NCBI RefSeq assembly: GCF_013001275.1
Contig: NZ_JABDMV010000103.1
Coordinates: forward strand, 1-64,000
Origin: Flaviramulus sp.
GTDB taxonomy: Bacteria; Bacteroidota; Bacteroidia; Flavobacteriales; Flavobacteriaceae
DNA length: 64,000 nucleotides
Direction: 5' to 3'
The notes under the pieces were generated by a model. The model saw only the letters and a program-made list of their open reading frames with translations. It made no database searches and had not been told where the DNA came from. This document shows positions 2 through 17,123 of the stretch, in pieces. Position 1 is the stretch's first letter. Each line of letters begins with the position of its first letter. Made by a program: the position numbers and the translations under genes.

Positions 2-439
2 AAACTCGTTTTTTGTTCTGTGTTAAGAGCTGGTTTACCATTGCATCAAGGTCTATTAAATTATTTTGATAAATCGGAAAATGCTTTTATTTCAGCCTAT
101 AGACATCATATAGATAACAAAGATGACTTTGACGTTATTATAGAATATCTTGCTGCACCTTCTTTAAATAATAAAATATTAGTGATTGTCGACCCCATGT
201 TAGCTACAGGAAAAACGTTACAGAATGTTTTAAATGCAATCAAAAAGCATGGTAAACCAAAAAAAATTCATATTGTTTCAGTTATAGGCTCTAAATATGG
301 TGTCGCTAATGTGGCCTCCTATTATCCTGAAAACACACATTTATGGATTGCGACCATAGATGATAATTTGAGCGAAAGGGGTTATATTATTCCTGGATTG
401 GGGGATGCAGGGGATTTATCTTTTGGAATTAAACTCTAA
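2..439 (+). CDS. upp: Uracil phosphoribosyltransferase, 5' end outside window
   Basis: Salvage enzyme converting uracil and PRPP to UMP in the cytoplasm. The frame is open to the left edge (K-L-V-F-C-S-V-L-R-A-G-L precedes and includes the GTG at 20), so that GTG is an internal valine and the N-terminus is missing. The PRPP-binding stretch VIVDPMLATGKTL and the C-terminal uracil-binding stretch YIIPGLGDAGDLSFG are both present, as in full-length Upp. About 145 of roughly 215 residues are visible. It ends at TAA 437-439. The next rightward gene is far away, so it ends its transcription unit. Family assignment is confident. Confidence 0.95.
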   Translation, partial: KLVFCSVLRAGLPLHQGLLNYFDKSENAFISAYRHHIDNKDDFDVIIEYLAAPSLNNKILVIVDPMLATGKTLQNVLNAIKKHGKPKKIHIVSVIGSKYGVANVASYYPENTHLWIATIDDNLSERGYIIPGLGDAGDLSFGIKL

Positions 440-1528: not shown

Positions 1529-2371
1529 TTATTCGTGCAATACTAAAAATGGTATACGCGTATGATAAGTTATTTTCTCAACTTTAGAATGAAATAATAT
1601 GCTTTGAAAATAATTAAGATTTTTGGCAACCATGGCTATCATATCAATGTCTCTACTTTCAACAAAACATTGAATAGCATTTTCTACTTTTTTATTTGTA
1701 AGGAAATGAAAACTTGGTTTAAAATCTTCGAAATAATCGTTTAACAAATCTTTCTTCGAATGTTGTTCTGGACTTAGTGATGCATTACTATCATTAATGT
1801 GAACGATACGCAAATTTGCATTTACTGAATTTAAAATATCAGTAAATGGCTCTAGAATGTTTAAAGGATAGGTTAAAGTGAGGTCTGTTGGATATGCAAT
1901 TTCCTTTAAATTAGAATATTTTGCATTTTCTGGGACAATTAGAGTAGTACATTTTACCTTAGTAATAACATCACCAGCATTACTTCCAATAATACATTTT
2001 TTGAGTCCTGAAGCTCCTTTTGTTCCCATTATAATCATGTCAATATTTTTTTCATTAACATGCTTTCTTATGGATTCTAGAAAATAACTATAATCGCTTA
2101 GTGAATAAAACTTGTGCTTTTTATTAGGTTTAATATCCTGACTAATTCTCTTTATGAGTTCTTTAAGTTTGGGTTTGGATTGCTCAATATTAATTTCACC
2201 TAAAATCTCTGGGGTTGGATTATAGCTATAATCGCCCACGAATACATTCTCTAAGCTATTAACATTGAGAATATAAAAGTTGCATGCCTTATTTTTTAAA
2301 AAATCAGTAGCATAATTAATCGCGTTCCATGAGTTATCAGAAAAATCTGTAGGTAATAAAATATTCATCAT
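1529..2371 (-). CDS. Universal stress protein with two tandem Usp domains
   Basis: A 280-residue cytoplasmic protein made of two Usp domains. The first (about 1-147) keeps the nucleotide-binding pattern: ILLPTDFSDNS at the N-terminus, GTKGASG (116-122), then GSNA and TTLIVP. The second domain (about 155-280) lacks a clear G-x2-G-x9-G(S/T) motif, so probably only the first binds ATP. Tandem Usp proteins are typical of stasis and hypoxia responses, for example in the DosR regulon. The first codon is one of two adjacent ATGs, and the predicted transcription start lies about 15 nt upstream. A perfect FNR-type box and a perfect -7 element precede it. Confidence 0.9.
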   Translation of the reverse strand: MMNILLPTDFSDNSWNAINYATDFLKNKACNFYILNVNSLENVFVGDYSYNPTPEILGEINIEQSKPKLKELIKRISQDIKPNKKHKFYSLSDYSYFLESIRKHVNEKNIDMIIMGTKGASGLKKCIIGSNAGDVITKVKCTTLIVPENAKYSNLKEIAYPTDLTLTYPLNILEPFTDILNSVNANLRIVHINDSNASLSPEQHSKKDLLNDYFEDFKPSFHFLTNKKVENAIQCFVESRDIDMIAMVAKNLNYFQSILFHSKVEKITYHTRIPFLVLHE

Positions 2372-2390: not shown

Positions 2391-2433
2391 CAAATCTAAA
2401 TGTAAATGCATTTAAAAAAAATGATATTAATCA
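2391..2433 (-). promoter_or_regulatory. FNR-type box and perfect -7 element of the usp operon
   Basis: TGATATTAATCA (2422-2433) is followed on the minus strand by TAGATTTG (2398-2391), an exact match to TAnnTTTG. The centres are 33 bp apart, which puts the box near -41.5 relative to a start at about 2386. This is the clearest example of the shared promoter layout. Confidence 0.75.
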
Positions 2434-2456
2434 TATTGGATAATAATAGAATACTA

Positions 2457-3509
2457 CTAGTAAACCTCTTGTAACTTTTGAAGGTCTAAAACTTTAATAT
2501 TTCTACCTTCCATTTCTATAAACCCTTGTTTTTTAAAATCTGACAATGTTCTAATTAAGGTCTCTGTTGCTATACCTGCAACACTAGCCAAATCATTACG
2601 TGAGATTTTAATCGGATCTTCAGGTTTTATATTTATTTTTTCGGCAAACCTTAAGATTGTTGAAGCTGTTTTTCTCTGAACAGAGCTATATGCCATTTGC
2701 AATAGTTGATCTTTAACACCTGTGATATCATCGGTTAATAATTGAATAACTTCCAAAGTAACCTTGTGATTATTAATTAAAACATCTTGAAACTCTGTTT
2801 TAGAAACACCTACCATTTCTGTGTCTTTCATTGCTACAGCTGTTTCTCGATAAGGTATATTTTGTGTAAAGGAAGTATAACCAAAAAGATCATCGGCTTT
2901 GTGCAGAGCAGTGGTAAGTTCTTTACCTTTTTCATCAAATTTAAAACATCTAACAACCCCTTTATTTATTAAATAAATGAAGTTTGAATTTTGTCCTTCT
3001 TTATAAATGGTTTCATTTTTTGAATAGTTGAGCACTGTACCATTCTTATCAAAAAAAAGCTTTAGATCATTTAAAGTTCTTAATTCATCTTCAAAATTAT
3101 TTGAATTGTTTTGAAAAGATTCTCTTTCATCTTTTAATATTGCAGCCTTGGCAATTCTGCTCTCAATAGCACTAATAATTTCATCTTCACTAAAGGGTTT
3201 GGTTATATAATCATCTGCACCCAGATCCATGCCTTTTCTCACATCTTGTCTTTCAGTTTTAGCCGATAGAAATATAAACGGAATAAATTTTGTTTGGTCA
3301 TGTTTTGCTAAACCCTCCAAAACACCATAGCCATCAAGTATTGGCATCATAATATCACATACAACAATATCAGGTCTTGTTTCTAATGCCATTTTTAGTC
3401 CTAATTGTCCATTAGCAGCAGTATGTACTTCGTAGTTTGAAAGTTCCAAGAGTTCAGCTGTGTTTTCTCTTAATACTTTATCGTCTTCTATTAATAGTAC
3501 ACTTTTCAT
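2457..3509 (-). CDS. Response regulator with Crp/FNR-type output (REC-cNMP-HTH)
   Basis: A 350-residue regulator. Residues 1-120 form a receiver domain with the acidic pair E8/D9/D10, phospho-acceptor D52 in CDIMMP and the conserved T/K positions (LSAKT, TKPF). Residues about 150-265 form a cyclic-nucleotide-binding-like barrel and 280-350 a Crp-type winged helix. The recognition helix TETLIR carries E316 and R320, spaced like E209 and R213 of E. coli FNR, which read TTGAT. There is no FNR-like N-terminal cysteine cluster, so the signal probably arrives by phosphorylation. Its ATG overlaps the kinase stop by 4 nt. It is the obvious candidate to bind the TGATnnnnATCA boxes of this region. Confidence 0.9.
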   Translation of the reverse strand: MKSVLLIEDDKVLRENTAELLELSNYEVHTAANGQLGLKMALETRPDIVVCDIMMPILDGYGVLEGLAKHDQTKFIPFIFLSAKTERQDVRKGMDLGADDYITKPFSEDEIISAIESRIAKAAILKDERESFQNNSNNFEDELRTLNDLKLFFDKNGTVLNYSKNETIYKEGQNSNFIYLINKGVVRCFKFDEKGKELTTALHKADDLFGYTSFTQNIPYRETAVAMKDTEMVGVSKTEFQDVLINNHKVTLEVIQLLTDDITGVKDQLLQMAYSSVQRKTASTILRFAEKINIKPEDPIKISRNDLASVAGIATETLIRTLSDFKKQGFIEMEGRNIKVLDLQKLQEVY

Positions 3510-5011
3510 ATCGCTGCTTTGTTTGGAAGTTCTATAGTAAAAGTTGACCCTTGATGTTCAACACTTTCAAAAGAAATAGTTCCGTTCAAATTTACTAAAT
3601 GATCTTTCACAATATTTAAACCAATCCCAGTGCCTTGCATGAGTAATGCGTTTTCCGCTCTAAAATAACGATTAAATATGTTTTTTTGATCTTTTTCAGG
3701 TATTCCCATACCATTATCTGTTACATTAATAATTGTAGTATTTTTATTTTGAGAAATTGTAATATCAATGACCGTGTTTTCTGGTGAATATTTTATTGCA
3801 TTATAAAGAATGTTTGATAAGGATAATTCTAATATTTTTTCATCTTGGAATAATGAGATATCATCTATATGTTCAGGATAATTTATGTGCTGACCTTTCT
3901 TTAAAATCATATTTGCATTGTAAATTACCTCATTTAAAACTTTGCTTAGCTTAAAGGAAGTGAATTTATAATTAATTTTACCTTTTTCTAATTTTTCTAC
4001 TGAAAGAAAATCATTTAAAATAGTATTGAGATATTGCACTTTATCTGTAATAGTATTAATATGTTTTTCACGTTTTTCTTGTTGTTCGGTCAATTTGTAT
4101 TTATTCAATAACATAGTTGAGGTTAAAATACCACTTAAAGGTGTTTTAAACTCATGAGAAACCATAGATAGGAATTTTGTTTTTAAATCGTTCAGTTCCA
4201 TTTCCGTAGCCAAAGCAGTTTTTAATTCTTCAGTTCTTAATTCAACAGTTTTTTCTAGTTTTTCTGTGTAGTTTTTTTGTTCGGTAATATCTAAAATGAT
4301 TGCAACAAAAACAGCTCTATCACCTAACTTTGAAAGCTGAAGATAAACATTTACAGGATAGGTGCTTCCTGATTTTCGCTGATGGATTGTTTCAAATTGG
4401 ATTTTTTCAATAGCTTTATCATTAAGTTCATTTAATTGCATCCTAAACTGCGATTCCGTAAAGTTTGGATTTAGGTCTATTGGTGTCATATCGGTAAGTT
4501 CCTCCAAACTGTAACCTATATTTTTTTGAGCACCATAATTAGCATTTATATACTTTAGGGTTTTGGCATCAAACACATATATTTCATTTAGGGATTCCTT
4601 AAAAATATTTGCTAAATGATTCCGCTCTTGCTCCATATATTTACGCTCGCTTATATCAATAACCAAAGCCATTACATAATCCTTACCGTATATTGTAAAT
4701 GGGTTTAAACCAGCTTCTACAGGAAACACACTACCATCCTTTTTCGCACCAAAAAGGTCACGCCCATGTCCCATTTGTCTGCGGGCTTTGTGTTTCATAA
4801 AACCATTAAAGTGAGCGCCATGGCCAGCATGATAATTTTGAGGAATTAATATATTAAGTGATTGTTTTACAAGTTCACCTTTAGCATAACCAAACATTTG
4901 GTTTGCAGAATCATTAGTTTCAACAATTTTTTGGTGCTCGTCAACTATAACAACCCCTTCGGAAACAGCATCTAGAAGCACCTTAAATATATCTTGATTT
5001 TGTTGAAACAT
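3506..5011 (-). CDS. PAS-PAS sensor histidine kinase with FixL-like first PAS domain
   Basis: A 501-residue soluble kinase with no membrane segment. PAS1 spans about 10-122, PAS2 about 132-246, then a coiled linker, HisKA with H286 (SHEFKTP) and HATPase_c with N-box NILYNAIKYS, DNGMGI and GTGIGL. In PAS1, H64 (NYHAGHGAH) and R84 (GHGRDLFG) are 20 residues apart, as are the heme ligand H200 and R220 of Bradyrhizobium FixL, and both are followed by a KKDGSVFP-like strand. A heme or other oxygen/redox ligand is thus plausible, but this motif also occurs in PAS domains not known to bind heme. The partner is the overlapping response regulator gene. A -7-like TAGATTAG (5054-5047) may be its promoter. 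Confidence 0.9.
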   Translation of the reverse strand: MFQQNQDIFKVLLDAVSEGVVIVDEHQKIVETNDSANQMFGYAKGELVKQSLNILIPQNYHAGHGAHFNGFMKHKARRQMGHGRDLFGAKKDGSVFPVEAGLNPFTIYGKDYVMALVIDISERKYMEQERNHLANIFKESLNEIYVFDAKTLKYINANYGAQKNIGYSLEELTDMTPIDLNPNFTESQFRMQLNELNDKAIEKIQFETIHQRKSGSTYPVNVYLQLSKLGDRAVFVAIILDITEQKNYTEKLEKTVELRTEELKTALATEMELNDLKTKFLSMVSHEFKTPLSGILTSTMLLNKYKLTEQQEKREKHINTITDKVQYLNTILNDFLSVEKLEKGKINYKFTSFKLSKVLNEVIYNANMILKKGQHINYPEHIDDISLFQDEKILELSLSNILYNAIKYSPENTVIDITISQNKNTTIINVTDNGMGIPEKDQKNIFNRYFRAENALLMQGTGIGLNIVKDHLVNLNGTISFESVEHQGSTFTIELPNKAAI

Positions 5012-5101
5012 GTCTTAATATTGATTGAAAAGTAACACGAAGATAACTAATCTAAATAATTTATGTTAACAGCCAGAGTAAAGTTTTAAATAGACTTTTA
5101 A

Positions 5102-5144
5102 TGATTTATATCATTCTTTAAATATTATGATATAACTAATTTTA
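5102..5144 (+). promoter_or_regulatory. FNR-type box and -7 element upstream of TerB-like gene
   Basis: TGATTTATATCA (5102-5113) lies 33 bp, centre to centre, from TAATTTTA (5137-5144), which matches TAnnTTTG except for the last base. The predicted start near 5149 is about 20 nt before the ATG at 5169. The box is divergently placed to the kinase gene, but at a non-standard distance for it. Confidence 0.65.
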
Positions 5145-5168
5145 CCATAAATATTAAAATCAAAAAAG

Positions 5169-5579
5169 ATGATAACTAAAAAGAAAATGACGCTTAAGTT
5201 TTATCAAAATCTTGGTAAGTTGTTTTATGCAATTGCAGCGTCCGATGGTAGCGTAAGAGATGCAGAGTTTGATAAGTTAAAAATATGTGTGAAAAAACAA
5301 TGGTTAACAATTGATGATATTGAAGATGGATTTGGTACTGATGCTGCTTACCAAATAGAAGTAGTTTTTGATTGGTTGAATCGCGATGAAGAATATAATG
5401 CTAAAACCTGTTATGATGATTTTGTTTCGTTTAAAAAAAGTCAAAGCCATTTGTTTACAGATGATGTTAGACGGTTAATACTTAAAACGGCGTCCTCAAT
5501 TGCTCATGCCTTCGCAGGTATCAATAAAGCGGAATTAATTATGCTCGCTAAACTAGACATGGAATTAAAAAAAAACTAA
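5169..5579 (+). CDS. TerB-like helical protein
   Basis: A 136-residue, largely alpha-helical cytoplasmic protein. The segment FYAIAASDGSVRDAEFDKL (about 17-35) resembles the metal-binding D-G-x-v-x-x-x-E stretch of TerB-like (tellurite resistance/YebE-type) domains, and a second helical half ends in AELIMLAKLD. TerB-like domains occur in stress-related membrane complexes; the exact role is unknown. It has its own boxed promoter, and the thioredoxin gene follows after 110 bp. The assignment rests on pattern similarity only. Confidence 0.6.
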   Translation: MITKKKMTLKFYQNLGKLFYAIAASDGSVRDAEFDKLKICVKKQWLTIDDIEDGFGTDAAYQIEVVFDWLNRDEEYNAKTCYDDFVSFKKSQSHLFTDDVRRLILKTASSIAHAFAGINKAELIMLAKLDMELKKN

Positions 5580-5589
5580 CTATAAGATA

Positions 5590-5609
5590 TTATAGTGACA
5601 AGACTATAA
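5590..5609. repeat. Short inverted repeat between TerB-like and thioredoxin genes
   Basis: TTATAGT (5590-5596) and ACTATAA (5603-5609) form a 7-bp inverted repeat around GACAAG. It could be a weak terminator or an operator. It does not match the FNR-type box. Confidence 0.3.
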
Positions 5610-5689
5610 CTGAACGCGTTGAAGCTGTAGAATGACTTTAGCCTATAATATTAGTTTTAAACTTAAAAATGTTATAAATAATCTAGAAA

Positions 5690-5986
5690 ATGAAAAGTAA
5701 TTTTGATGACATAATTAATTCTGAAACACCAGTATTAGTTGACTTTTTTGCTGAATGGTGCGGTCCATGTAAAACGTTGGCGCCTATATTAAAGGAAGTC
5801 AAAGAAGACCTTGGCGACGGTGTGAAAATTATAAAAATTGATGTAGATAAAAACCAACCATTAGCTGCAAAATATCAGGTAAGAGGCGTTCCAACAATGT
5901 TATTATTTAAAAATGGGACTCAAGTTTGGAGACAATCTGGAGTACTTCAAAAAAATGACATTATCAATATCATTAACTCAAACTAA
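5690..5986 (+). CDS. trxA: Thioredoxin
   Basis: A 98-residue single-domain thioredoxin, slightly shorter than the ~105 usual. The active site is WCGPC (C24, C27), the buried Asp lies in LVDFFAEW, and the cis-proline loop is GVPTML. It reduces protein disulfides in the cytoplasm. There is no signal peptide. A -7-like TAGTTTTA (5652-5659) suggests its own promoter, without an FNR-type box. The purine nucleoside phosphorylase gene starts 9 bp after its end, so the two are probably co-transcribed. Confidence 0.92.
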   Translation: MKSNFDDIINSETPVLVDFFAEWCGPCKTLAPILKEVKEDLGDGVKIIKIDVDKNQPLAAKYQVRGVPTMLLFKNGTQVWRQSGVLQKNDIINIINSN

Positions 5987-5995
5987 TCGGACTTT

Positions 5996-6694
5996 ATGAG
6001 TGTACACATAGAAGCAAAAAAAGGAGAGATAGCGGAAACTGTTTTGCTGCCTGGAGATCCTATGCGAGCCAAATGGATTGCAGAATCGTTTTTAGAAAAC
6101 CCTGAATGCTACAACGATGTACGCGGTATGCTAGGTTATACTGGGTTTTATAAAGGTAAACGTGTGTCTGTGCAAGGTACCGGCATGGGCATTCCATCTG
6201 CACTAATATATTGTCATGAATTAATAAATGAGTATGGTGTAAAAAACTTAATTCGTGTTGGTTCAACAGGGTCGTATCAAAAAGCGGTAAAAATCCGAGA
6301 TATTATAATAGCCATGGCCGCGTCATCTACTTCAGGCATCAATAATTCTCGTTTTATTAATGCGGATTATTCACCCACAGCTAATTTTGAGTTGTTAATG
6401 AAAGCTGCGAATTATGCCAAAGCTCAAAATATTCCTATAAAAGCTGGAAATGTACTATCTGCGGATGAGTTTTATGAAGACGATTTTGATGCTTATAAAA
6501 AATGGGCAGAATTTGGTGTGCTATGTGTAGAAATGGAAACCGCAGGATTATACACTATTGCCGCAAAATTTAATGTTAAAGCACTCTCAATTTTAACAGT
6601 TTCCGATTCTTTAGTTACTAAAGAAAGAACCAGCGCAAACGAACGTGAAAGCACATTTCAAACCATGGTAGAAATTGCTTTAAGTACACTGTAA
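5996..6694 (+). CDS. deoD: DeoD-type purine-nucleoside phosphorylase
   Basis: A 232-residue enzyme that phosphorolyses purine (deoxy)ribonucleosides to base plus (deoxy)ribose-1-phosphate. N-terminal [13 protein letters not shown] (phosphate-binding G20/R24 equivalents), [19 protein letters not shown] (purine/ribose contacts) and TVSDSL (catalytic Asp) match hexameric DeoD. Length is normal for the family. It lies 9 bp after trxA. With upp at the left edge this end of the window holds two nucleoside/base salvage genes. Confidence 0.95.
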
Positions 6695-6729
6695 TTTTCT
6701 TTTAATTGTAAAAATTCCAAAGTTCAAAT

Positions 6730-6770
6730 GAAACTAGATACCATTAAAAGCCACTAGTTTCTTATTTTTG
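6730..6770 (+). promoter_or_regulatory. Possible terminator of deoD and -7 element of the P-type ATPase gene
   Basis: GAAACTAG (6730-6737) and CTAGTTTC (6754-6761) are inverted repeats around a 16-base loop, followed by TTATTTTT, a weak terminator. TATTTTTG (6763-6770) is an exact TAnnTTTG -7 match about 20 nt before the ATG at 6791. There is no FNR-type box at the matching upstream position. Confidence 0.4.
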
Positions 6771-6790
6771 AATTGAGATGATATTATTTT

Positions 6791-8758
6791 ATGGAAAACA
6801 ATCAAGAAGACCATCACAATCATAATCAGCTATTTGGAAGGAAAACAGAGCTTTATTTCGCCATTTTATGTGGTTTCTTTTTACTAATTAGTTTTTTAGT
6901 TGAAAAGTTAACCGCTTTATCTTACTTGGTTTACTTTTTAGGGTATATCATATCATATTTTTTTGGAGGATTTTATATCTCCATTGAAGCCTCAAAAAAA
7001 ATCCCTAAGAGACAATTTGATATAGATTTCTTAATGATTGCAGCAGCAGCAGGCGCTGCCTATATTGGTTGTTGGGCGGAAGGTGCTTTATTATTGTTCC
7101 TATTTAGTTTAGGTCATGCCCTTGAGCATTACGCCATGAATAAAGCAAAAAAATCGATTGAAGCTTTAGGCAATTTATCCCCGAAAACAGCACTCATAAA
7201 AACTAACGGAAAATTAGAAGAAATATCAATTCAAGATTTACAAATTAATGATGTAATTGTAATTAAGCCAAATACAAAAATTGCGGCTGATGGGGTTATC
7301 ATAAATGGTAGCAGTAGTGTTAATCAAGCACCGATCACAGGAGAGAGTATACCAGTTGATAAAACATTTATAGAGCATTTTGATAATTTACGAGATTTTA
7401 ATAAGATAGATAAAAAGCATGTTGTTTTTGCAGGAACCATAAATGGTGATAATTTACTTGATGTTTTAGTTCTTAAGCTTAGCAAGGATTCAACAGTTTC
7501 TAGATTAATAAAATTAGTTAGCGAAGTAGAAACCCAAAAATCACCCACACAGCGACTCACTAAAAAGTTCGAGAAATGGTATGTTCCCATAGTTATAATC
7601 ATCGTTTTTTTATTATGTTTTGCGTATTTGGTGATAGATGAAAGTTTTAACGATAGTTTGTATAGAGCCATAACTGTATTAGTTGCAGCTAGTCCATGCG
7701 CATTAGCAATCTCTACACCGAGTGCCGTATTAAGCGGTATAGCAAGAGCGGCTCAAAAGGGTGTTCTAATCAAAGGAGGAAAAGCTTTAGAAGATTTAGG
7801 CGAAATCACCACCATAGCATTTGATAAAACCGGTACATTAACCGAAGGGAAACCAAAACTTACGAACCTCATTCCATTAAATAAAATGGGTGAAATCGAC
7901 TTATCTAAGTTAGTATTTGAAGTTGAAAGTTTGAGCAATCATCCACTTGCAAGAGCCATGGCTAATGATTTAAAAACGAAATTTAATATTGAACCGAAAA
8001 ATAAAGCTTCAAGAGTTAATGCCATTCAAGGTAAAGGAATTCAGGCCATTTATGATGACCACAAAGTTTTTATTGGCAACGTAAAGCTAATGACCGATTC
8101 TGGGATTGACGTTGGTGATTCCGTAATTTCCAAAATGGAGAATATGTTAAAAAACGGACATACGGTAATGTTGGTGGCTTATAAGAATAAAATCGTCGGT
8201 TTAGTAAGTGTTATGGATTTGCCCAGAAAAACGGCTGCATCAACTTTAAAACGATTAAAAGAAATAGGTATTAAACACATGATTATGCTTACTGGCGATC
8301 ATCAAAATGTTGGAGATGCCATTGCAAAGCAAATTGGGCTTACAGAAGCTAAAGGGAATTTATTGCCAGAAGATAAAGTTGCTGCTATAAGAACATTAAT
8401 AGAAAGAGATAAAAAAATAGCCATGGTGGGAGATGGTGTTAACGATGCTCCCGCTATGGCATTAAGTACAGTGAGCGTTGCTATGGGAGCCGCAGGTAGC
8501 GATGTTGCACTTGAGACGGCAGATGTAGCATTAATGTCTGATAAAATTGAAAATTTACCCTTTGTAATTGGTTTGAGTCGTGAATCTAAGCGCATCATTA
8601 AACAAAATATTATTATAAGTTTAGGGGTTGTGATATTACTTGTTCCTATTACTATATTAGGACTAACAAATATTGGTATAGCCGTCGCTTTTCATGAAGG
8701 TTCTACTATAGTTGTAGTCATAAATGCATTACGATTACTTCGATTTAAAATGGATTAG
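6791..8758 (+). CDS. P1B-4-type heavy-metal ATPase (probable Fe(II)/Co(II) exporter)
   Basis: A 655-residue inner-membrane pump with A-domain ITGES, P-domain DKTGTLTEG, TGDHQNV and GDGVNDAP. The transmembrane metal site is SPC (about residue 301) rather than CPC, and the penultimate helix has HEGST (about 634). SPC plus HEG(G/S)T and about six helices define the P1B-4 subgroup (CoaT, CtpD, PfeT), which exports cobalt or ferrous iron. The N-terminus is short and His-rich (DHHNHN) with no CxxC domain. Fe(II) export would fit a low-oxygen gene cluster. Substrate is inference from the motifs. Confidence 0.88.
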   Translation: MENNQEDHHNHNQLFGRKTELYFAILCGFFLLISFLVEKLTALSYLVYFLGYIISYFFGGFYISIEASKKIPKRQFDIDFLMIAAAAGAAYIGCWAEGALLLFLFSLGHALEHYAMNKAKKSIEALGNLSPKTALIKTNGKLEEISIQDLQINDVIVIKPNTKIAADGVIINGSSSVNQAPITGESIPVDKTFIEHFDNLRDFNKIDKKHVVFAGTINGDNLLDVLVLKLSKDSTVSRLIKLVSEVETQKSPTQRLTKKFEKWYVPIVIIIVFLLCFAYLVIDESFNDSLYRAITVLVAASPCALAISTPSAVLSGIARAAQKGVLIKGGKALEDLGEITTIAFDKTGTLTEGKPKLTNLIPLNKMGEIDLSKLVFEVESLSNHPLARAMANDLKTKFNIEPKNKASRVNAIQGKGIQAIYDDHKVFIGNVKLMTDSGIDVGDSVISKMENMLKNGHTVMLVAYKNKIVGLVSVMDLPRKTAASTLKRLKEIGIKHMIMLTGDHQNVGDAIAKQIGLTEAKGNLLPEDKVAAIRTLIERDKKIAMVGDGVNDAPAMALSTVSVAMGAAGSDVALETADVALMSDKIENLPFVIGLSRESKRIIKQNIIISLGVVILLVPITILGLTNIGIAVAFHEGSTIVVVINALRLLRFKMD

Positions 8759-8809
8759 TAAAAGCAATTTGTGTATTAAATTTCTACGTAATGCTAATTT
8801 CTAACAAAC

Positions 8810-8852
8810 TGACATTTATCATTTTAAGAAACATACACTTGTGATATTTTTA
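8810..8852 (+). promoter_or_regulatory. One-mismatch FNR-type box and -7 element
   Basis: TGACATTTATCA (8810-8821) differs from TGATnnnnATCA at one position. TATTTTTA (8845-8852) is centred 33 bp downstream and matches TAnnTTTG except for the last base. The predicted start near 8857 is about 14 nt before the ATG at 8871. Confidence 0.5.
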
Positions 8853-8870
8853 TAGAAATAGCCAATTTCT

Positions 8871-9473
8871 ATGCTCACATTTAAAAACTATAATATTGCT
8901 GACTGGTTCTCTTTTTATAGAATAATAGCAGCACCCTTTTTATTGACGCTAATTTGGTTTGATAAACAGTTAATTTTTACTTGGTTCCTTTTAATTAGTT
9001 ATTCTACCGATGCTATAGATGGTTTTTTGGCACGTAAACTTAAAATAGTAAGTTCGAGGGGTTCTCAATTAGATTCATTTGGAGATCAAATAACCTTGAT
9101 TATTGGTCTTATTGGACTTTTTTATTTTGAACCAGATTTTATCAAAGCAAACCTTATATTAATTCTTATTGCGTTCGTGCCATATATCATACAAATGGTT
9201 CTCGCATATATAAAATATGGAAAGGCAACTGCGTTTCACACGTATTTGGCAAAATTGTCGGCAATGATACAATGTGTTTTTATTCTATGGGCGTTATTCT
9301 TCTCGCCTGAATATTCCCTATTCTACATTATGATTGGTATTGGATTGCTAGAGACTTTTGAAGAAATTACACTTATTTATATGTACGATAATTGGGCTTC
9401 AGATGTAAAAGGAATATACTGGGCTTTTAGAGATAAAAGGCGATTTAAAAAAAACACAATCGAAAAGCATTAA
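8871..9473 (+). CDS. CDP-alcohol phosphatidyltransferase family membrane enzyme
   Basis: A 200-residue integral membrane protein carrying the family signature D-x2-D-G-x2-A-R-x8-G-x3-D-x3-D in TDAIDGFLARK...SRGSQLDSFGDQ (about residues 47-74). Such enzymes transfer a phosphoalcohol from a CDP-linked donor to an alcohol, as in phosphatidylglycerophosphate synthesis. About six hydrophobic helices are visible. The specific product is not predictable. It has its own boxed promoter and no close operon partner, so it may adjust membrane lipids as part of the regulon. Confidence 0.85.
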   Translation: MLTFKNYNIADWFSFYRIIAAPFLLTLIWFDKQLIFTWFLLISYSTDAIDGFLARKLKIVSSRGSQLDSFGDQITLIIGLIGLFYFEPDFIKANLILILIAFVPYIIQMVLAYIKYGKATAFHTYLAKLSAMIQCVFILWALFFSPEYSLFYIMIGIGLLETFEEITLIYMYDNWASDVKGIYWAFRDKRRFKKNTIEKH

Positions 9474-9506
9474 CACTGATTAAAGTTATTAGAACTTCTA
9501 GATAAC

Positions 9507-9549
9507 TGATTAAAATCATAGTTTGAAAAATACAATCTTAATAATTTAG
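9507..9549 (+). promoter_or_regulatory. FNR-type box and -7 element upstream of PNPOx-like gene
   Basis: TGATTAAAATCA (9507-9518) is a perfect box. TAATTTAG (9542-9549) is centred 33 bp downstream. The predicted start near 9554 lies about 20 nt before the ATG at 9574. Confidence 0.65.
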
Positions 9550-9573
9550 CTTAAACACTAAATAGTAACAATA

Positions 9574-10029
9574 ATGATTAGAACACTTAACAAAAAAGAA
9601 TGTGAAAAAGTGCTGGCAACTAATTACATTGGAAATCTTTCCTATATTTTTAAAGACAGACCATTTATAGTGCCCATAACTTATTTCTATAACCAGGATG
9701 ATAATGTAATTATTGGGTATTCGGCCGAAGGTCATAAAATAAATGCGATGCGTAAAAACGACAATGTGTCTTTTAGTGTTTCAGATGTTGATTCTATAAA
9801 TTCGTGGGAATCTGTACTCGCTCGAGGTAGTTTTAAAGAACTTATTGGGAGCTATGCTAAGGCGCAACTTCATGCATTTTCTTTAGGAGTAAAAGATTTA
9901 ATAATGAAAAAAGAGCATAAAAAACTAGATTTCATTAGTGAGTTTTCAGCGAAACTATATACCGAAGATTTACCCATAGTTTTTCATATTCTAGTTGAAG
10001 AAATTACGGGTAAAATAAGAAGGCATTAA
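9574..10029 (+). CDS. Pyridoxamine 5'-phosphate oxidase-like flavoprotein
   Basis: A 151-residue split-barrel protein of the PNPOx_2/NimA-like group. Recognisable are the N-terminal LNKKECEKVL helix, GNLSYIFKDRPFIVPITYF (first strands), YSAEGHKINAMRKNDNVSFSV (flavin phosphate-binding region) and WESVLARGSFKEL. Members bind FMN, heme or F420 and often act in redox defence. A lipoprotein gene follows after 16 bp, so both are probably transcribed from the boxed promoter at 9507-9549. The substrate is unknown. Confidence 0.85.
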   Translation: MIRTLNKKECEKVLATNYIGNLSYIFKDRPFIVPITYFYNQDDNVIIGYSAEGHKINAMRKNDNVSFSVSDVDSINSWESVLARGSFKELIGSYAKAQLHAFSLGVKDLIMKKEHKKLDFISEFSAKLYTEDLPIVFHILVEEITGKIRRH

Positions 10030-10045
10030 TTATAATAGAAAGTAC

Positions 10046-10924
10046 ATGAAATATATATATATAATTTTACTCGTTTTATTGTTTTCAAATTGCAAAAAGG
10101 ACAAACCTCAGGAAGGTATTTTGGACATGGACGCAGCCGAACAATTGGAGCCTCTTATAGAAGACACATTGCAATCAACCGATCCAGATATCGCTCCTCT
10201 TAATAGGTCCATTTCTATCGAAATAAAACAAAAAAATCTGATTAAGAAAAAGGACGAAAGAGAAGAACTTCAAAAATTAATCATTGATAAAAGAGAAGAA
10301 ATAGACACTAAAGAATATACCATTAATTTTAAGTATCCACTACTAAATGAGTCGTTTAAACCAACTCATAGAAATTTTAATGAATTTATTACTCAGTATT
10401 ACGCTAATTTAAAAGAAACCGAATTAGACATACTAGAAAGCAAATTATTATGCGATAGTATAGCAGCTGCCAATTTTAGAGAAGAACGCTTTATTGATTA
10501 CAAAATATATAGTGTAAACGATCAACTTGTGAGCGTGCTGTTTTATAAAGAAAATTTCTACTCTGAAGCCATGCATCCTAGTTACACTTTCGATTGCTTT
10601 AATTTCGATTTAAACAGAGGTGTTTTCATGACTTATGAAGACTTTTTTGTTCAGGGATCAGAGGATGAATTATTAGGGATTATAAATAATAATATAAATC
10701 AAAAAATAAGAAGCGGAAATATGTATTATGAATGCTGGGAATTATCTTTAGACGATTTGTTTTTAAATAAAAACAACTTTGTTCTTAACGACGAGTACGC
10801 CGAGTTTTATTTTGATGACTGCATAATCTGTCCATCTTATACAGGTACTTATTCAATCAAACTGCCATTAGTCGACCTATTATCGGTATTAAAAAAATAC
10901 GATTTAAATCCCTTAGTGTTTTAA
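10046..10924 (+). CDS. DUF3298-type lipoprotein
   Basis: A 292-residue protein with signal sequence and lipobox (LLFSNC, Cys17), so it is probably an outer- or inner-membrane-anchored lipoprotein. The C-terminal part (about 95-290) resembles DUF4163/DUF3298 (RsiV-like) domains: a strand pair around VSVLFYKENFYSEAMHPSY, then FNFDLNRGVFMTYEDFF and a C-terminal segment ending PLVDLLSVLKKY. Two cysteines in FDDCIICPSY are close together. RsiV-like domains bind peptidoglycan or lysozyme in some proteins; no function is established here. Confidence 0.7.
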   Translation: MKYIYIILLVLLFSNCKKDKPQEGILDMDAAEQLEPLIEDTLQSTDPDIAPLNRSISIEIKQKNLIKKKDEREELQKLIIDKREEIDTKEYTINFKYPLLNESFKPTHRNFNEFITQYYANLKETELDILESKLLCDSIAAANFREERFIDYKIYSVNDQLVSVLFYKENFYSEAMHPSYTFDCFNFDLNRGVFMTYEDFFVQGSEDELLGIINNNINQKIRSGNMYYECWELSLDDLFLNKNNFVLNDEYAEFYFDDCIICPSYTGTYSIKLPLVDLLSVLKKYDLNPLVF

Positions 10925-10976
10925 TGAATTCAATAACTTGAGTAATCTTTATATATTCAAAACGAAGAGTCCACAA

Positions 10977-11005
10977 TGTTATTAATGTGAATAATAACAA
11001 TAAAA
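10977..11005. terminator. AT-rich hairpin between convergent genes
   Basis: TGTTATT (10977-10983) pairs with AATAACA (10993-10999), followed by ATAAAATT. It sits between the lipoprotein and CBS genes, which converge. The stem is weak, so the call is tentative. Confidence 0.3.
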
Positions 11006-11413
11006 TTATAATTGCTTTTCAAGAAAGTAATTCATCAGGTCTTCTGTAGATACTATTCCAACAACCTTGTTATCTTCAACAAGCGGAATGGCACGAAATT
11101 TCCCCTTTGAAAGTTCGGTGACAATTTCTTTAATGGTGGCATCAGGGCTTAATGAAAAAGGGTTAGAAGTCATGATATCCTTTACTAACAGTTCGTTGTA
11201 AATAGAATTTTTATCATCAAGTCCTGCACCTTTAATTCTGTACATAAAGTCAATTAAACTAACCATACCAACCAATCTGTCATTTTCAGTTACAGGAATA
11301 TGATGGTGAAATTTTTCTTTCTCATAGATATGTTTAACGTCAATGATTTTTTGCTTTGGCGAAACACAAATTATATTTTTTGTCATAATTGAAGATACGG
11401 GTGTAGATTTCAT
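11006..11413 (-). CDS. Tandem CBS-domain protein
   Basis: A 135-residue protein made only of two CBS domains (about 6-62 and 76-133). The first contains VSSIMTKNIICVSPKQ and LVGMVSLIDFM, the second VKDIMTSNPFSLSPDA and VVGIVSTEDLM. Stand-alone CBS pairs bind adenosine nucleotides, and one such protein, Hrp1, is strongly induced by hypoxia in mycobacteria. It is transcribed leftward from the bidirectional box at 11476-11487, opposite to the phasin-like/ABC1 operon. Confidence 0.9.
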   Translation of the reverse strand: MKSTPVSSIMTKNIICVSPKQKIIDVKHIYEKEKFHHHIPVTENDRLVGMVSLIDFMYRIKGAGLDDKNSIYNELLVKDIMTSNPFSLSPDATIKEIVTELSKGKFRAIPLVEDNKVVGIVSTEDLMNYFLEKQL

Positions 11414-11444
11414 AATGTTGAATTTATGGTTATTAAAGCTTAAG

Positions 11445-11518
11445 CTAAATTAATTTAAAGTATAGTAAGAACACATGATTAATATCATTTTTAAGCAGGT
11501 TATTAAACAATATATTAG
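11445..11518. promoter_or_regulatory. Bidirectional FNR-type box with two -7 elements
   Basis: One perfect box, TGATTAATATCA (11476-11487), has a -7-like element at 33 bp on both sides: TAATTTAG on the minus strand (11452-11445) for the CBS gene and TATATTAG on the plus strand (11511-11518) for the phasin-like/ABC1 operon. A single regulator dimer could thus activate two divergent promoters, each from about -41.5. Confidence 0.65.
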
Positions 11519-11544
11519 ATATGAATTAAAACTAATTTTAGAAT

Positions 11545-11919
11545 ATGAAAACTAGAACTCTTATTGAGCTACTCGCGTTATCATCGAGTTTATACCATTT
11601 TGCAAAAGAGGCTCAACTTATGGATAGAATTAATGAGTTGTCCGATAAAGGAAAAGATGGAATTAACAAAGTAGCTTCAGAATCACAGATAGATGAAGAT
11701 GGAAATGAACTCGAATTTATGGACAAGGTTATTCGAAAAGCAAATCAAGTAAAAGAAGAACTTGAACAAAAAATTGAGGAGCAAGTCGTTATAATATATA
11801 AAAAAATGAACATTGCTCATTTAGACGAAATAAAGGCACTTAATGAAAAAGTTATACAATCTGATAAGGAAATTGCATTATTGGAAGCACGTTTAAATCG
11901 AATAGAAGCAAAAGAATAA
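11545..11919 (+). CDS. Phasin/UbiK-like coiled-coil protein
   Basis: A 124-residue, highly charged helical protein. The C-terminal stretch from DEIKALNEKV to LEARLNRIEAKE is a coiled coil like the trimerisation segment of phasin-like PhaI/PhaF and UbiK proteins. A central negatively charged helix (residues 50-85) precedes it. It ends 1 nt before the start of the ABC1/UbiB-like kinase, so the two are translationally coupled. In E. coli UbiB works with UbiJ and the small coiled-coil UbiK, which makes an accessory role plausible. No enzymatic motif is visible. Confidence 0.6.
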   Translation: MKTRTLIELLALSSSLYHFAKEAQLMDRINELSDKGKDGINKVASESQIDEDGNELEFMDKVIRKANQVKEELEQKIEEQVVIIYKKMNIAHLDEIKALNEKVIQSDKEIALLEARLNRIEAKE

Positions 11920-11920
11920 G

Positions 11921-13624
11921 ATGGGGATTTTCCACATAATTAGAAAAAGGTACAAATCGGTTGCAAGATATAATCAAATCATAAGAGTTTTGGTTAAATA
12001 CGGCTTCGATGATATGGTGTTTTATATGAGGCAAGAAAAACGCTATCAGTTTTTTCAAAAATTTATACCAAAATCTTCAAAGAAACGTGCTTTGCAACAT
12101 ACAAAATGGGAAAAAATGCGTTTGGTGTGCGAGGAACTTGGACCAACATTTATAAAATTTGGACAAATAATGAGCAATCGTCCCGATTTAATACCATTCG
12201 ATTTAGTTTTTGAGTTAGAGAAACTACAAAATAACGTTCCGCCAATAAGTAATGAACAAGCCAAAGTCATAGTAGAATCAGAACTAAAAGATACCGTAGA
12301 AAATTTATTTGCTTGGTATGAACCTAAACCTTTTGCATCAGCTTCAATGGCACAGGTACATAAAGTTACACTTTTTACCGGCGAGCGTATTATATTGAAA
12401 ATTCAACGACCAGGTATTCGTGAAATTATTTTGGAAGATATAAAAGTAATGTATAAAATAGCTGCTCTTCTAAAAAAAAGAATTCCTTCCTTAAAAAGTT
12501 TTGATCCTGTTGGTTTGGTTAAAAACTTTGAAGAATCCATTTTAAAGGAACTCGATTTTATTAATGAGTCCATTAATGTCCAGCGATTTTATAATAATAT
12601 AAATAATGATACTGCTAAAGATCAATTTGCTAAGGCACCTAAAGTATTTCAAAATTATACAACAGATAAAATACTGGCATTAGAATTTATGTCAGGAATT
12701 AAAATTAATAAGATAAAAGAGTTAGAAGATTCTGATTTTGATGTAAAAGTAATTAGTAGGCGTTTAGCTACTACCTATTTTAAGCAAATTTTCGAATATG
12801 GCTTTTTTCATGCAGATCCGCATCCTGGTAATTTGTTGGTAATGCCTAATAGAACGATTTGCTATTTGGATTTTGGAATGATGGGTAGTATTCTACCTAG
12901 AGATATTGAAATATTCGGTCAATTATTTATGTCTATTATAAAAAAGGATGTCAATAAAATTATTAAGGTCTTGCAGAAATTATCTAATGATTCTGCGATA
13001 CCAAATATGAGAGATTTAGAATTTGATATTAACGAATTTGTTGAGAAACATTACGTAAGGACTATTCATAAAAATGAAATGAGCACACTTTTGCTCGAAC
13101 TAAAGGATATAATAATTGCACATGGTTTAAAAGTGCCAACTTATTTCTATCTTTTTGCTAGATCGCTAGTTACAATTGAAGGCGTTTTAGATAAACTTAA
13201 CCCTAATTTGGAGCAGTTTGATATGGTTCGCCCTTATTTAATTAAAAGTGTAACTAAGAATTACAATCCATTAAAAATGGGGGAAAAAGTACTTAATTCT
13301 ATGTACGAACTTAGTAATTATATGGAAGATTTTCCAGGGGATTTAAAAAATGCGATTCGCAAAATTAATAGTGGACAGGTTAAAGTTGATTTAACACATA
13401 AAGGTATCGACCCAATGGTGCATACTCTACAACGGATAACAAAACAACTTGTTAGTGCGTTTATCGCAGTAGCATTAGTGGTAGGGTCATCTTTGTTTAT
13501 TATTAACGATGTAATGCCGTTGTGGAAAGGTACTTCTGTTTTTGGTATTATTGGTATTGTATTAGCAGGCATACTCACTTTTGGGATGTTAATGAACATA
13601 AAAAAAGGTGATTACGATTACTAA
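11921..13624 (+). CDS. ABC1/UbiB-family atypical kinase, membrane anchored
   Basis: A 567-residue protein of the AarF/UbiB/ADCK family. The family marker KFGQ lies at 79-82 within GPTFIKFGQIMSNRPDLIP, followed by the A-rich loop ASASMAQVHKV, catalytic Lys in LKIQRPG, HADPHPGNLL and the DFG-like YLDFGMMG. Two hydrophobic helices at the C-terminus (about 505-560) anchor it in the membrane. Such proteins promote isoprenoid quinone or lipid metabolism. This lineage normally makes menaquinone rather than ubiquinone, so the exact target is open. It is coupled to the upstream coiled-coil gene and controlled by the bidirectional box. Confidence 0.9.
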   Translation: MGIFHIIRKRYKSVARYNQIIRVLVKYGFDDMVFYMRQEKRYQFFQKFIPKSSKKRALQHTKWEKMRLVCEELGPTFIKFGQIMSNRPDLIPFDLVFELEKLQNNVPPISNEQAKVIVESELKDTVENLFAWYEPKPFASASMAQVHKVTLFTGERIILKIQRPGIREIILEDIKVMYKIAALLKKRIPSLKSFDPVGLVKNFEESILKELDFINESINVQRFYNNINNDTAKDQFAKAPKVFQNYTTDKILALEFMSGIKINKIKELEDSDFDVKVISRRLATTYFKQIFEYGFFHADPHPGNLLVMPNRTICYLDFGMMGSILPRDIEIFGQLFMSIIKKDVNKIIKVLQKLSNDSAIPNMRDLEFDINEFVEKHYVRTIHKNEMSTLLLELKDIIIAHGLKVPTYFYLFARSLVTIEGVLDKLNPNLEQFDMVRPYLIKSVTKNYNPLKMGEKVLNSMYELSNYMEDFPGDLKNAIRKINSGQVKVDLTHKGIDPMVHTLQRITKQLVSAFIAVALVVGSSLFIINDVMPLWKGTSVFGIIGIVLAGILTFGMLMNIKKGDYDY

Positions 13625-13630
13625 CAATAA

Positions 13631-13659
13631 AAAACATCTCTGGTTAGAGACGCTTTTTT
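13631..13659. terminator. Bidirectional terminator between convergent genes
   Basis: Stem TCTCT/AGAGA extended by CAT/ACG positions around a GGTT loop (13634-13654), with A-rich sequence on the left and CTTTTTTATT on the right. On the minus strand the mismatched pairs become G-U wobbles and the tail is T-rich. It separates the ABC1 gene from the leftward coiled-coil gene. Confidence 0.6.
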
Positions 13660-13678
13660 ATTATATGTCCTTTTTAAA

Positions 13679-14281
13679 TCAGGCTTTTTTAACAAAGGCT
13701 TGTTTTAAATGTGTAAATGCTTCAGAAATTTCACCTTGAAAATGCTCCCATTTAGTTTCTTCTTTTTTAGTGTACTTTGATTTGAAATCATCAACAAATT
13801 GCTTAAACTGCTTTTTGCCTTTTTCAAAAGATACTTTTGTATCTGAATTTCCTAAATTTAATTTTTCTTCTAAAATTTCAAGACCAATTTTAAACTGTTC
13901 GATTTCAATCAATGCAATAGCGTACATGCGTTTAAATTTTTCATTAGTTTTTATTTTCACTTCAAGATCATGCAATGATTGTAGTAATTGTTTTTTTTGT
14001 TCGTTAAATTTTTCTGTTGTTTCTGCTTTGCCCAGAGCGAGTTGTACGCGAAGTTCGTCAAATTTAGCATGAATTTCATCTGCCTTTTCTTTCCCTTTTT
14101 TAACTCTTAATTCGTTATCATGAATATATAAGTTGAATTTCTTTTTTAATTCCTCATACTTGTCTTGTGCTTCGGCTTTTCCTAATGCTGCTTTTACTTG
14201 AATTTCTTCCAACTCGATAGATGTTTTTTTAAGAGCATCAACAACCTTGTCTATAAAATGAGTGTTCTGTGTTGTTTTCAT
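13679..14281 (-). CDS. Coiled-coil protein with internal ~50-residue repeats
   Basis: A 200-residue, lysine/glutamate-rich all-helical protein without signal peptide or membrane segment. An internal repeat is visible: the core xLALGKAExxxKxxExKK occurs at about residues 30-49 (VKAALGKAEAQDKYEELKK) and 80-98 (VQLALGKAETTEKFNEQKK), with a diverged third copy near 142-160 (LNLGNSDTKVSFEKGKKQF). The pattern suggests a long amphipathic rod, such as a phasin- or apolipoprotein-like surface binder. The family is unknown to me. An FNR-type box at 14339-14350 precedes the gene. Confidence 0.7.
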   Translation of the reverse strand: MKTTQNTHFIDKVVDALKKTSIELEEIQVKAALGKAEAQDKYEELKKKFNLYIHDNELRVKKGKEKADEIHAKFDELRVQLALGKAETTEKFNEQKKQLLQSLHDLEVKIKTNEKFKRMYAIALIEIEQFKIGLEILEEKLNLGNSDTKVSFEKGKKQFKQFVDDFKSKYTKKEETKWEHFQGEISEAFTHLKQAFVKKA

Positions 14282-14307
14282 AATAAATTGATTTTTTATA
14301 TTGAATA

Positions 14308-14350
14308 TAAATATCTATACAATACTTCAAAAATTCTATGATATATATCA
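14308..14350 (-). promoter_or_regulatory. FNR-type box with weaker -7 element
   Basis: TGATATATATCA (14339-14350) is a perfect box with the same core as the one at 882-893. At the standard 33-bp spacing the minus strand reads GATATTTA (14315-14308), which keeps the TTT but not the initial T of TAnnTTTG. The box therefore fits the set, with a poorer core promoter. Confidence 0.5.
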
Positions 14351-14426
14351 ACTATTAGAAAATTTACAACACAATTTTATCTAAACAAAAACCTAAAGTG
14401 TGTATAAATTAGCCATAAATTAATAA

Positions 14427-15419
14427 CTAATTATTAGCTTGTTTGTTTAATTTTCTTTCTTTTCGCTCTAATTTTTTAAAATAACCGCGTGTTAAAAAAT
14501 TGTGCTTTAAGGCTTCCATGTTTTGATTAAACTTATCTGTTCCTTCATTAATGTTTTTAATAGTAGATTTTAAATCATCGACTAATAGTGTGTCATTAGC
14601 GATGTAATTCAGTGCTCCTTTATTAGAATTCAAACTGTTTACAATACCATTAATATTGCCTATTACTGTGTCAATTTCGGTACTGGTTGTTTCTAAGTTA
14701 TTGACAATAGATTTAAGTTTTTCACCAGTAACCATATCATTTAAAAATATACCTAAAAGTGTTTCGTTATTTGTTAGTATAGGTTTAATAACATTATTTA
14801 AATCATTAATAGTTGCCGTAGCTGTATAACTTGCATGCTTTAAATTTTTAATGGATTGCTTTAAATCGTTAGCCATTATAGTATCATTTAGCAGCATTCC
14901 TAATGTGCCCTTCCCATAGGTCAAGGCATCGGCAACTTTAAGCAGTTTTGCCGTTAGAATAGCAGTATTTTCGCCTGTAACACTAAGCGTACTCAAAATA
15001 TCGTCCGCGCCAATTTTACTATAGGATGCAATGGTATCCCCATTATTTATGGATTGTGTTTCACCTTTTCCTGGCACAATATTTATAATCATATTGCCTA
15101 CTAAACCATCAGAACCAATAGTTGCAATCGCATCTATTTTTATGTGATTTGTGATTTTTTCATCTATAACCATATCTACTTTTATAGTAGAATCATTTAT
15201 CATACTTATCGATTTTACTGTGCCAATATCTATTCCAGAATAGCGCACATTATTTCCTTTTTGCAAACCATTAACGTTTTGAAAATAGGCATGAACATTA
15301 AATGTTTTTTTAAACATATTTTCTTTTTGTCCAAGAAAATAAACACCAATAACAAAAAGAAGTGTACCAATAATGACAAAGAAACCTAAATTTAATTTTT
15401 GTGCGTTTGTTGTTTTCAT
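14427..15419 (-). CDS. MlaD-type MCE-domain lipid transport protein
   Basis: A 330-residue protein with one N-terminal membrane helix (LGFFVIIGTLLFVIGVYFL), then an MCE domain with the typical VNGLQKGNNVRYSGIDIGTV stretch, followed by a long helical C-terminal part with repeated LLNDT-type motifs. MCE proteins form periplasmic hexamers carrying phospholipids to or from the MlaE/MlaF transporter. I chose the ATG at 15419 because it gives a standard start 10 bp after mlaF. The frame extends further upstream to 15512, but that would overlap mlaF and add a non-signal N-terminus. Confidence 0.88.
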   Translation of the reverse strand: MKTTNAQKLNLGFFVIIGTLLFVIGVYFLGQKENMFKKTFNVHAYFQNVNGLQKGNNVRYSGIDIGTVKSISMINDSTIKVDMVIDEKITNHIKIDAIATIGSDGLVGNMIINIVPGKGETQSINNGDTIASYSKIGADDILSTLSVTGENTAILTAKLLKVADALTYGKGTLGMLLNDTIMANDLKQSIKNLKHASYTATATINDLNNVIKPILTNNETLLGIFLNDMVTGEKLKSIVNNLETTSTEIDTVIGNINGIVNSLNSNKGALNYIANDTLLVDDLKSTIKNINEGTDKFNQNMEALKHNFLTRGYFKKLERKERKLNKQANN

Positions 15420-15429
15420 GATAATGGTT

Positions 15430-16212
15430 TTATTGTTTAAAAAATGCCTGAACTCTTGGGTCATTAGAGGACGATAGTTCTGTAAATGAGCCAACCGCAT
15501 AATTAGTGCCATCTATAAGTAATATCATGCGTTCAGAAATCACTCTAGCACAATCCACATCGTGCGTTATGATTAGAGAAGACGTGTTATATTTTCTTTG
15601 AATATCTTGCATTAATAGGATAATCTCCTTTGCTGTAATAGGATCTAATCCGCTTGTTGGCTCGTCATATAAAATAATTTTTGGCCGCAAAATAAGTGTA
15701 CGTGCTAAAGCGACTCGACGTTTCATACCGCCAGATAATTCTGAAGGCATTAAGTCTATAGCATCCGCTAAACCAACATTTTCTAAAGCCTCAATTACTA
15801 ATGCATCCTTATCTTTATAATTTTCCATTTTTTTGGCATGATGACGTAATGGAAATTCTAAATTTTCTCTAACCGTCATAGAATCATACAAAGCGCTACC
15901 TTGAAATAGAAATCCAATATCTGATCTTAGCATATCCAAAGCCAATTGGTCTAATTTTGTGATGTCTTTATGCATCACCGAAATCGTACCACTATCCGCT
16001 TCCATTAAACCAACAAGGCATTTAATCATTACCGATTTTCCTGATCCCGATTTTCCCATTATAACTAAATTTTCACCTTGATGTAGTTTCATGTTAAAAC
16101 CATTAAGCACGTTATTACTGCCAAAGCTTTTGTGTAAATCTTTGATTTCAAGAACAATTTCGCGTTCTTCTGAAAGATCATGTTCCGCAGATATGTTTTT
16201 TTGTGGAATCAT
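15430..16212 (-). CDS. MlaF-type ABC transporter ATPase
   Basis: A 260-residue ATPase with Walker A GKSGSGKS (53-60), Q-loop FLFQGSALYDSMTV, signature LSGGMKRRVALAR, Walker B IILYDEPTSGLDP and switch His in IITHDV. The FQG(S/A)ALFDSMTV-type Q-loop is characteristic of MlaF/Ttg2A. It energises lipid transport by the MlaE permease. Its ATG overlaps the permease stop by 4 nt, and mlaD follows after 10 bp, so the three genes form one operon. Confidence 0.95.
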   Translation of the reverse strand: MIPQKNISAEHDLSEEREIVLEIKDLHKSFGSNNVLNGFNMKLHQGENLVIMGKSGSGKSVMIKCLVGLMEADSGTISVMHKDITKLDQLALDMLRSDIGFLFQGSALYDSMTVRENLEFPLRHHAKKMENYKDKDALVIEALENVGLADAIDLMPSELSGGMKRRVALARTLILRPKIILYDEPTSGLDPITAKEIILLMQDIQRKYNTSSLIITHDVDCARVISERMILLIDGTNYAVGSFTELSSSNDPRVQAFFKQ

Positions 16213-16991: not shown

Positions 16992-17009
16992 AATAACATG
17001 GTTATTACT

Positions 17010-17052
17010 CAAATGTAGCCCAATAGCGTCGCTTTTTAAATGATAAAAATCA
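17010..17052 (-). promoter_or_regulatory. FNR-type box and perfect -7 element of the mlaEFD operon
   Basis: TGATAAAAATCA (17041-17052) is followed on the minus strand by TACATTTG (17017-17010), an exact TAnnTTTG match, centres 33 bp apart. A start near 17005 lies 14 nt before the ATG at 16991. A second, one-mismatch box, TGATGAATGTCA (17064-17075), lies 23 bp further upstream. Confidence 0.7.
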
Positions 17053-17123
17053 TGTATCAAGTCTGATGAATGTCATATTTATTAGCATTTTATAGACTTA
17101 CTTTTATAATTATATACGAACAC

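Follow-up and report, generated by a model that had tools for sequence, protein, structure and literature searches.

A putative oxygen-responsive pair of FixL-class kinase and receiver–FNR/FixK-type regulator in Flaviramulus sp. and other Bacteroidota

Introduction

In rhizobia, the fixNOQP/fixGHIS regulon is governed by the FixL–FixJ–FixK cascade, in which FixJ and FixK are separate proteins. A locus of Flaviramulus sp. (Flavobacteriaceae) raises the question of whether the steps of this cascade can be carried by a single pair of genes. An earlier note, made from the sequence alone, had read the locus as a FixL-like kinase acting on a protein in which the FixJ and FixK roles are joined. The papers that we found say little about low-oxygen control in Bacteroidota, and neither REC-CRP regulators of this phylum nor such a system was found described in the open literature. 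In F. psychrophilum the cbb3 oxidase is reported to be strongly raised under O2 limitation, and the passages of the report concerned with this rise name no regulator behind it (PMC9723704). Here, we analyse a 64,000-nucleotide stretch of the Flaviramulus sp. genome (contig NZ_JABDMV010000103.1, positions 1–64,000; hereafter the window) together with the rest of this genome and orthologous loci in its relatives.

Results

Architecture of the pair

The genes at the centre of the locus are as follows.

1529–2371, minus strand: UspA universal stress protein, 3' of the regulator, the conserved third gene (Pfam, gene order)
2457–3509, minus strand: REC-cNMP-HTH_Crp response regulator, 350 aa, with D52, E316, I319 and R320
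3506–5011, minus strand: soluble PAS-PAS-HisKA-HATPase sensor kinase, 501 aa, with His286
4622–5011, minus strand: PAS1 of the kinase, of the FixL/DosP class, with H64 and R84 (PDB sequence and fold matches, conservation)

Open reading frames, Pfam and hydropathy agree with the arrangement given in the earlier note, a soluble PAS-PAS kinase whose gene overlaps that of a REC-cNMP-HTH protein by 4 nt (3506–3509). The Pfam domains of the kinase are PAS_9 (two stretches), HisKA and HATPase_c, with His286 as the phospho-histidine. By hydropathy the kinase is soluble: it contains no hydrophobic segment, its maximum 19-residue KD mean being 1.33 versus 2.69 for MlaE.

A FixL/DosP-class PAS domain

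H64 and R84 of PAS1 had been likened to H200 and R220 of FixL. The two residues lie 20 positions apart and align with the FixL pair, and a PDB sequence search with PAS1 returned FixL first (5e-13), DosP next and, weakly, the heme PAS domain of FG214. BjFixL served as a row in the alignment, and the PDB searches confirm the alignments to FixL itself. Structural modelling pointed the same way: with the AF2 model of PAS1 (pLDDT 88), a fold search placed FixL, DosP and FG214 on top and blue-light LOV proteins mostly below. The proximal histidine on F-alpha that characterizes the FixL/DosP class is H64. The distal side differs, as the hydrophobic triad I215/L236/I238 of FixL is replaced in the alignment by Q79/A100/L102, so that ligand behaviour may differ. 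In a survey of the FixL/DosP cluster, this histidine is taken to be the main determinant of heme binding and is reported in about 60% of members (PMC10468136).

Conservation of H64 in close homologues, on which the earlier reading depended, was examined in the 62 kinases whose partner regulators share at least 50% identity. Of these close partners, 57 retain His64 and 45 retain Arg84, which is replaced in about 27%, especially in 626-aa kinases; R78 and G81 are conserved. The proximal histidine occurs in 99/107 partner PAS domains overall and in 41/43 partner kinases of a second locus set drawn mostly from other families. In other proteins encoded at these loci, it is found in 1/48 of the PAS domains scoring 12–50 bits and in 13/13 of those above 50 bits, so that the histidine marks this PAS subclass. 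Partner kinases of 626–630 aa (L049–L052, L088, L103) have lost R84 and, in some cases, the proximal histidine too; leucine stands at the latter site in a few partners (L050, L088, L116). About 13 partner kinases of the second locus set carry a near-canonical FixL PAS domain (HIIGIGREV), such as that of Arcticibacter (E 8e-31 to BjFixL); the regulators with which they pair are orthologous and come from Mucilaginibacter, Arcticibacter, Sphingobacterium and others.

A receiver joined to an FNR/FixK-type module

That a FixJ-type receiver and an FNR/FixK-type DNA-binding module are united in one protein is borne out by Pfam, which assigns Response_reg to residues 4–116, cNMP_binding to 161–246 and HTH_Crp_2 to 282–348; none of the NCBIfam matches listed for the regulator reaches its cut-off. 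The receiver is of the FixJ type, with D52 as its phospho-acceptor site, and the output is cNMP-HTH_Crp, with no NarL/LuxR-type output as in FixJ. The recognition helix carries E316 and R320 with the spacing of FNR E209/R213, as proposed, and D52, E316 and R320 are identical in 77/77 homologues. The site of FNR Ser212 is occupied by isoleucine in 76/77 (I319 here). Fold matches of the regulator are CRP-family structures, including FixK2 and FNR, with TM-scores that are low because the domain arrangement differs.

The absence of an Fe-S cluster, also part of the earlier proposal, fits the regulator: its only cysteines are C51 and C188, the latter variable among homologues, so that it lacks the Fe-S cysteine set. 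The cAMP-binding residues Glu72/Arg82/Ser83 of CRP are likewise missing from it, Y211 standing at the Glu72 position and an acidic E222 at that of Arg82. Since the cNMP pocket is without the cAMP residues and the Fe-S cysteine set is absent, the regulator is, to judge from its residues, most likely controlled by phosphorylation.

Distribution and neighbourhood

The pair recurs across Bacteroidota and is linked to the cbb3 oxidase and hemN. Full-length regulators were counted by hand in 65 of 150 genomes of the same family (one per genus), and a match at E 1e-60 is present in 57 of 395 Bacteroidota genomes. The gene order kinase–regulator–Usp is preserved at nearly all of 39 loci. Under the simplification that genomes are independent, which holds only in part, ccoN lies within 15 kb of the regulator in 13 of the 62 own-family genomes with both genes, where 0.87 are expected (P 4e-12), and within 50 kb in 22 of the 62 (2.9 expected). 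In the second locus set, cco and/or hemN matches were found near the regulator at 25 of the 51 loci where a regulator was found; hemN and ccoG near the pair were confirmed by NCBIfam at several loci. In the Flaviramulus sp. genome, which is 94.6% complete, no ccoN scored above threshold, and the system here would therefore serve the stress island, not an oxidase.

These data bear on a reading in which a genuine two-component pair governs the island, but PAS1 of the flavobacterial subgroup has lost heme and responds through the same fold to another ligand or to redox state, the O2-sensing heme version being confined to kinases with near-canonical FixL PAS domains. The distal pocket unlike that of FixL, the frequent loss of R84, the loss of the histidine in a few partners and the missing ccoN of this genome all agree with it. 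Yet His64 is nearly invariant, R78 and G81 are conserved, PAS1 is closest to heme PAS domains in both fold and sequence, and the cco/hemN linkage is common to both kinase types, near-canonical or not. We consider a non-heme PAS1 unlikely.

Two further features of the neighbourhood were observed. Within the Usp island of several genomes lie beta-CASP RNase-like and ATP-cone proteins (L246:5928–8149, L040:1553–3780). UPRTase copies, both cut inside, stand at the left end of the window (20–439) and at the right end of contig C56 (L246:12757–13394); the C56 Usp/Hsp20 block may neighbour the window in the chromosome. A join of the two contigs through UPRTase was rejected, as there is no overlap and the copies are non-identical.

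Operator boxes and promoter geometry

Palindromic boxes of the form TGATnnnnATCA occur nine times in the window against 1.9 expected, a number reached in 0/100 shuffles. Those with a position or a gene of note are listed with their targets; the boxes themselves are unstranded.

882–893: intergenic box, no target gene assigned
2422–2433: box TGATATTAATCA before UspA, with the -7 element TAGATTTG at 2391–2398 (minus strand), exactly +35
5102–5113: box TGATTTATATCA between the kinase and ORF 5169, at -41.5 for ORF 5169 (TAATTTTA at 5137–5144) and not for the kinase
5169–5579, plus strand: 136-aa conserved protein without a Pfam family, a recurrent neighbour and box target (20 loci)
9507–9518: box before a PPOX-family protein (9574–10029, plus strand), with TAATTTAG at 9542
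11476–11487: box between a CBS protein (11006–11413, minus strand) and a weakly phasin-like protein (11545–11919, plus strand), with a -7-like element at +35 on both sides
14339–14350: weaker intergenic box near ORF 13679–14281 (minus strand), without a -7 element at +35
17041–17052: box before MlaE (16209–16991, minus strand), with TACATTTG at 17010–17017 (minus strand)

For MlaE, the true start is probably not the TTG at 17060; an ATG at 16991 fits the box and its -7 element. The boxes at 2422 and 17041 to which the earlier note had pointed thus exist, but the FNR/FixK TTGA specificity ascribed to them does not stand; that at 2422 lies next to the pair as described, yet it precedes the downstream UspA gene and not the kinase–regulator pair.

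The strict form, MTGATWWWWATCAK, occurs 18 times in the genome versus three for the reversed motif. Across 40 ortholog loci, 87 kb of intergenic DNA contains 127 boxes, against 2 for the reversed control, and 692 kb of coding DNA contains 27, against 14. The outer, flanking base of the intergenic boxes is A in 168, C in 70, T in 12 and G in four half-sites, so that A or C is present in 238/254. With T in only 12/254, these counts reject the FNR/FixK TTGAT operator (TTGAT-N4-ATCAA). For covariation between a Ser/Ile helix residue and the outer base, only six Ser-class sites were available for comparison. Near pairs outside the own family (L282, L302, L313, L316), GTGATnnnnATCAC palindromes were observed, possibly another version of the operator.

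Of 235 oriented boxes, 152 are followed by the motif TAnnTTTG at an offset of exactly 35 nt from box start to motif start, compared with about four at an average offset. This motif is the sigma-A -7 box, which in F. psychrophilum has been located at -12 to -5 (PMC9723704). With the +35 spacing, the centre of the box falls at -41.5, the classical position for an activator. The boxes behave as activator sites, the -41.5 position being shown statistically. Autoregulation of the kinase–regulator pair from -41.5 was rejected: of the 32 boxes close to the kinase, only 3 fit.

Genes with a box at -41.5 encode Usp (61 genes at 40 loci), the 136-aa neighbour family (20), Hsp20 (10) and WG-repeat proteins (8) and, more rarely, MlaE, PPOX and S30AE (four each), DnaJ and CcoI (three each), and thioredoxin and P-type ATPase (two each). 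In Flaviramulus sp., where the regulon was read from stretches around boxes, further boxes lie before genes for Usp, Hsp20 and a CBS protein. This target set resembles the DosR regulon of mycobacteria (Usp, Hsp20, S30AE, CBS, P-type ATPase).

Which protein reads the boxes

The genome also encodes an FNR-like protein (C95) with Fe-S-type cysteines and the same E..IR helix as the regulator, and a cco-linked 225-aa FNR-like protein likewise combines FNR-type cysteines with this helix. Boxes are enriched in genomes without the regulator too, and the idea that they are exclusive to REC-CRP genomes was rejected; given both facts, the boxes are not assignable to the REC-CRP regulator alone, and an Fe-S-type FNR probably shares them. 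One could go further and regard them as mainly the sites of such a canonical Fe-S FNR-like regulator, with the REC-CRP protein binding other DNA or only modulating FNR sites. However, the composite of box and TAnnTTT was found genome-wide 584 times (control 30) in regulator-positive versus 307 times (control 53) in regulator-negative genomes, about twofold more with REC-CRP (P 7e-12), and the excess persists when negatives below 2.5 Mb are dropped (P 5e-8); moreover, boxes cluster at the pair and at the Usp gene conserved next to it. That the boxes belong mainly to an Fe-S FNR is quite unlikely. PAS kinases are abundant and the E/R spacing is shared across the CRP/FNR superfamily, but that FixL-like residues arose by chance in an ordinary two-component system lying next to an ordinary stress island is very improbable in the face of the ortholog conservation, the histidine control, the cco/hemN linkage and the promoter geometry.

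Discussion

We read the pair as a one-step version of the rhizobial FixL–FixJ–FixK cascade, in which a heme-based, O2-sensing kinase exerts phospho-control over activation from MTGATWWWWATCAK boxes at -41.5, and assign this reading a probability of about 0.6. PAS1 would bind heme b through the proximal His64, with O2 holding the soluble kinase inactive. When O2 falls, His286 would become phosphorylated and the phosphate would pass to D52 of the receiver, as the domain content and gene overlap suggest. The receiver would then let the attached CRP/FNR-type domains bind the boxes as a dimer, and boxes so occupied would activate promoters with the TAnnTTTG -7 element. The predicted targets are genes for universal stress proteins, Hsp20, the ribosome hibernation factor S30AE, thioredoxin, P-type ATPases, PPOX and lipid transport, with cbb3 oxidase genes as further putative targets in relatives.

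The broader claim, a Bacteroidota-wide O2-responsive system of FixL-class heme kinase and receiver-FNR/FixK activator with its own operator at -41.5, whose targets would be cbb3 genes in certain lineages and, in flavobacteria, a dormancy island like that of DosR, we hold at even odds. With candidates named for the sensor, the regulator, the operator, the promoter geometry and the target set, O2 control in flavobacteria becomes directly testable, and the composite of TGATnnnnATCA and TAnnTTTG at +35 (window 2422–17052, L242–L250) could predict the regulon across Bacteroidota.

With FixL–FixJ–FixK the pair shares a FixL-class PAS domain with the proximal histidine and often the distal arginine, the receiver, an FNR/FixK-type DNA-binding module and, in relatives, the linkage to cbb3 and hemN. 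There are distinguishable differences: the FixJ and FixK functions reside in one protein with no transcription step between them, the outer base of the box is A/C and not T, the local targets are mainly of the Usp/Hsp20 type and the promoters use the Bacteroidota -7 element. This suggests that FixJ and FixK can merge into a single step, so that an FNR-type activator comes under direct phospho-control where rhizobia use a transcriptional cascade. FNR itself has in common with the regulator the cNMP fold, HTH_Crp, the E..R recognition helix, the TGAT core palindrome and the -41.5 position, whereas here an N-terminal receiver replaces the Fe-S cysteines, isoleucine stands at the Ser212 site and the outer base is A/C; FNR-type DNA binding thus appears to be separable from Fe-S sensing. 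In mycobacteria, DosR/DosST likewise place a heme kinase and a response regulator over Usp, Hsp20, S30AE, CBS and P-type ATPase genes, but with GAF heme and NarL-type output in place of PAS and CRP-type output; the resemblance is one of analogy and not homology. NmpRSTU of Myxococcus xanthus is a soluble heme-based kinase pathway with proposed low-O2 sensing and with cbb3 and hemN among its targets, and the same report discusses universal stress proteins; unlike the pair described here, it employs a protoglobin sensor, a phosphorelay and an NtrC-type regulator (PMC11841059).
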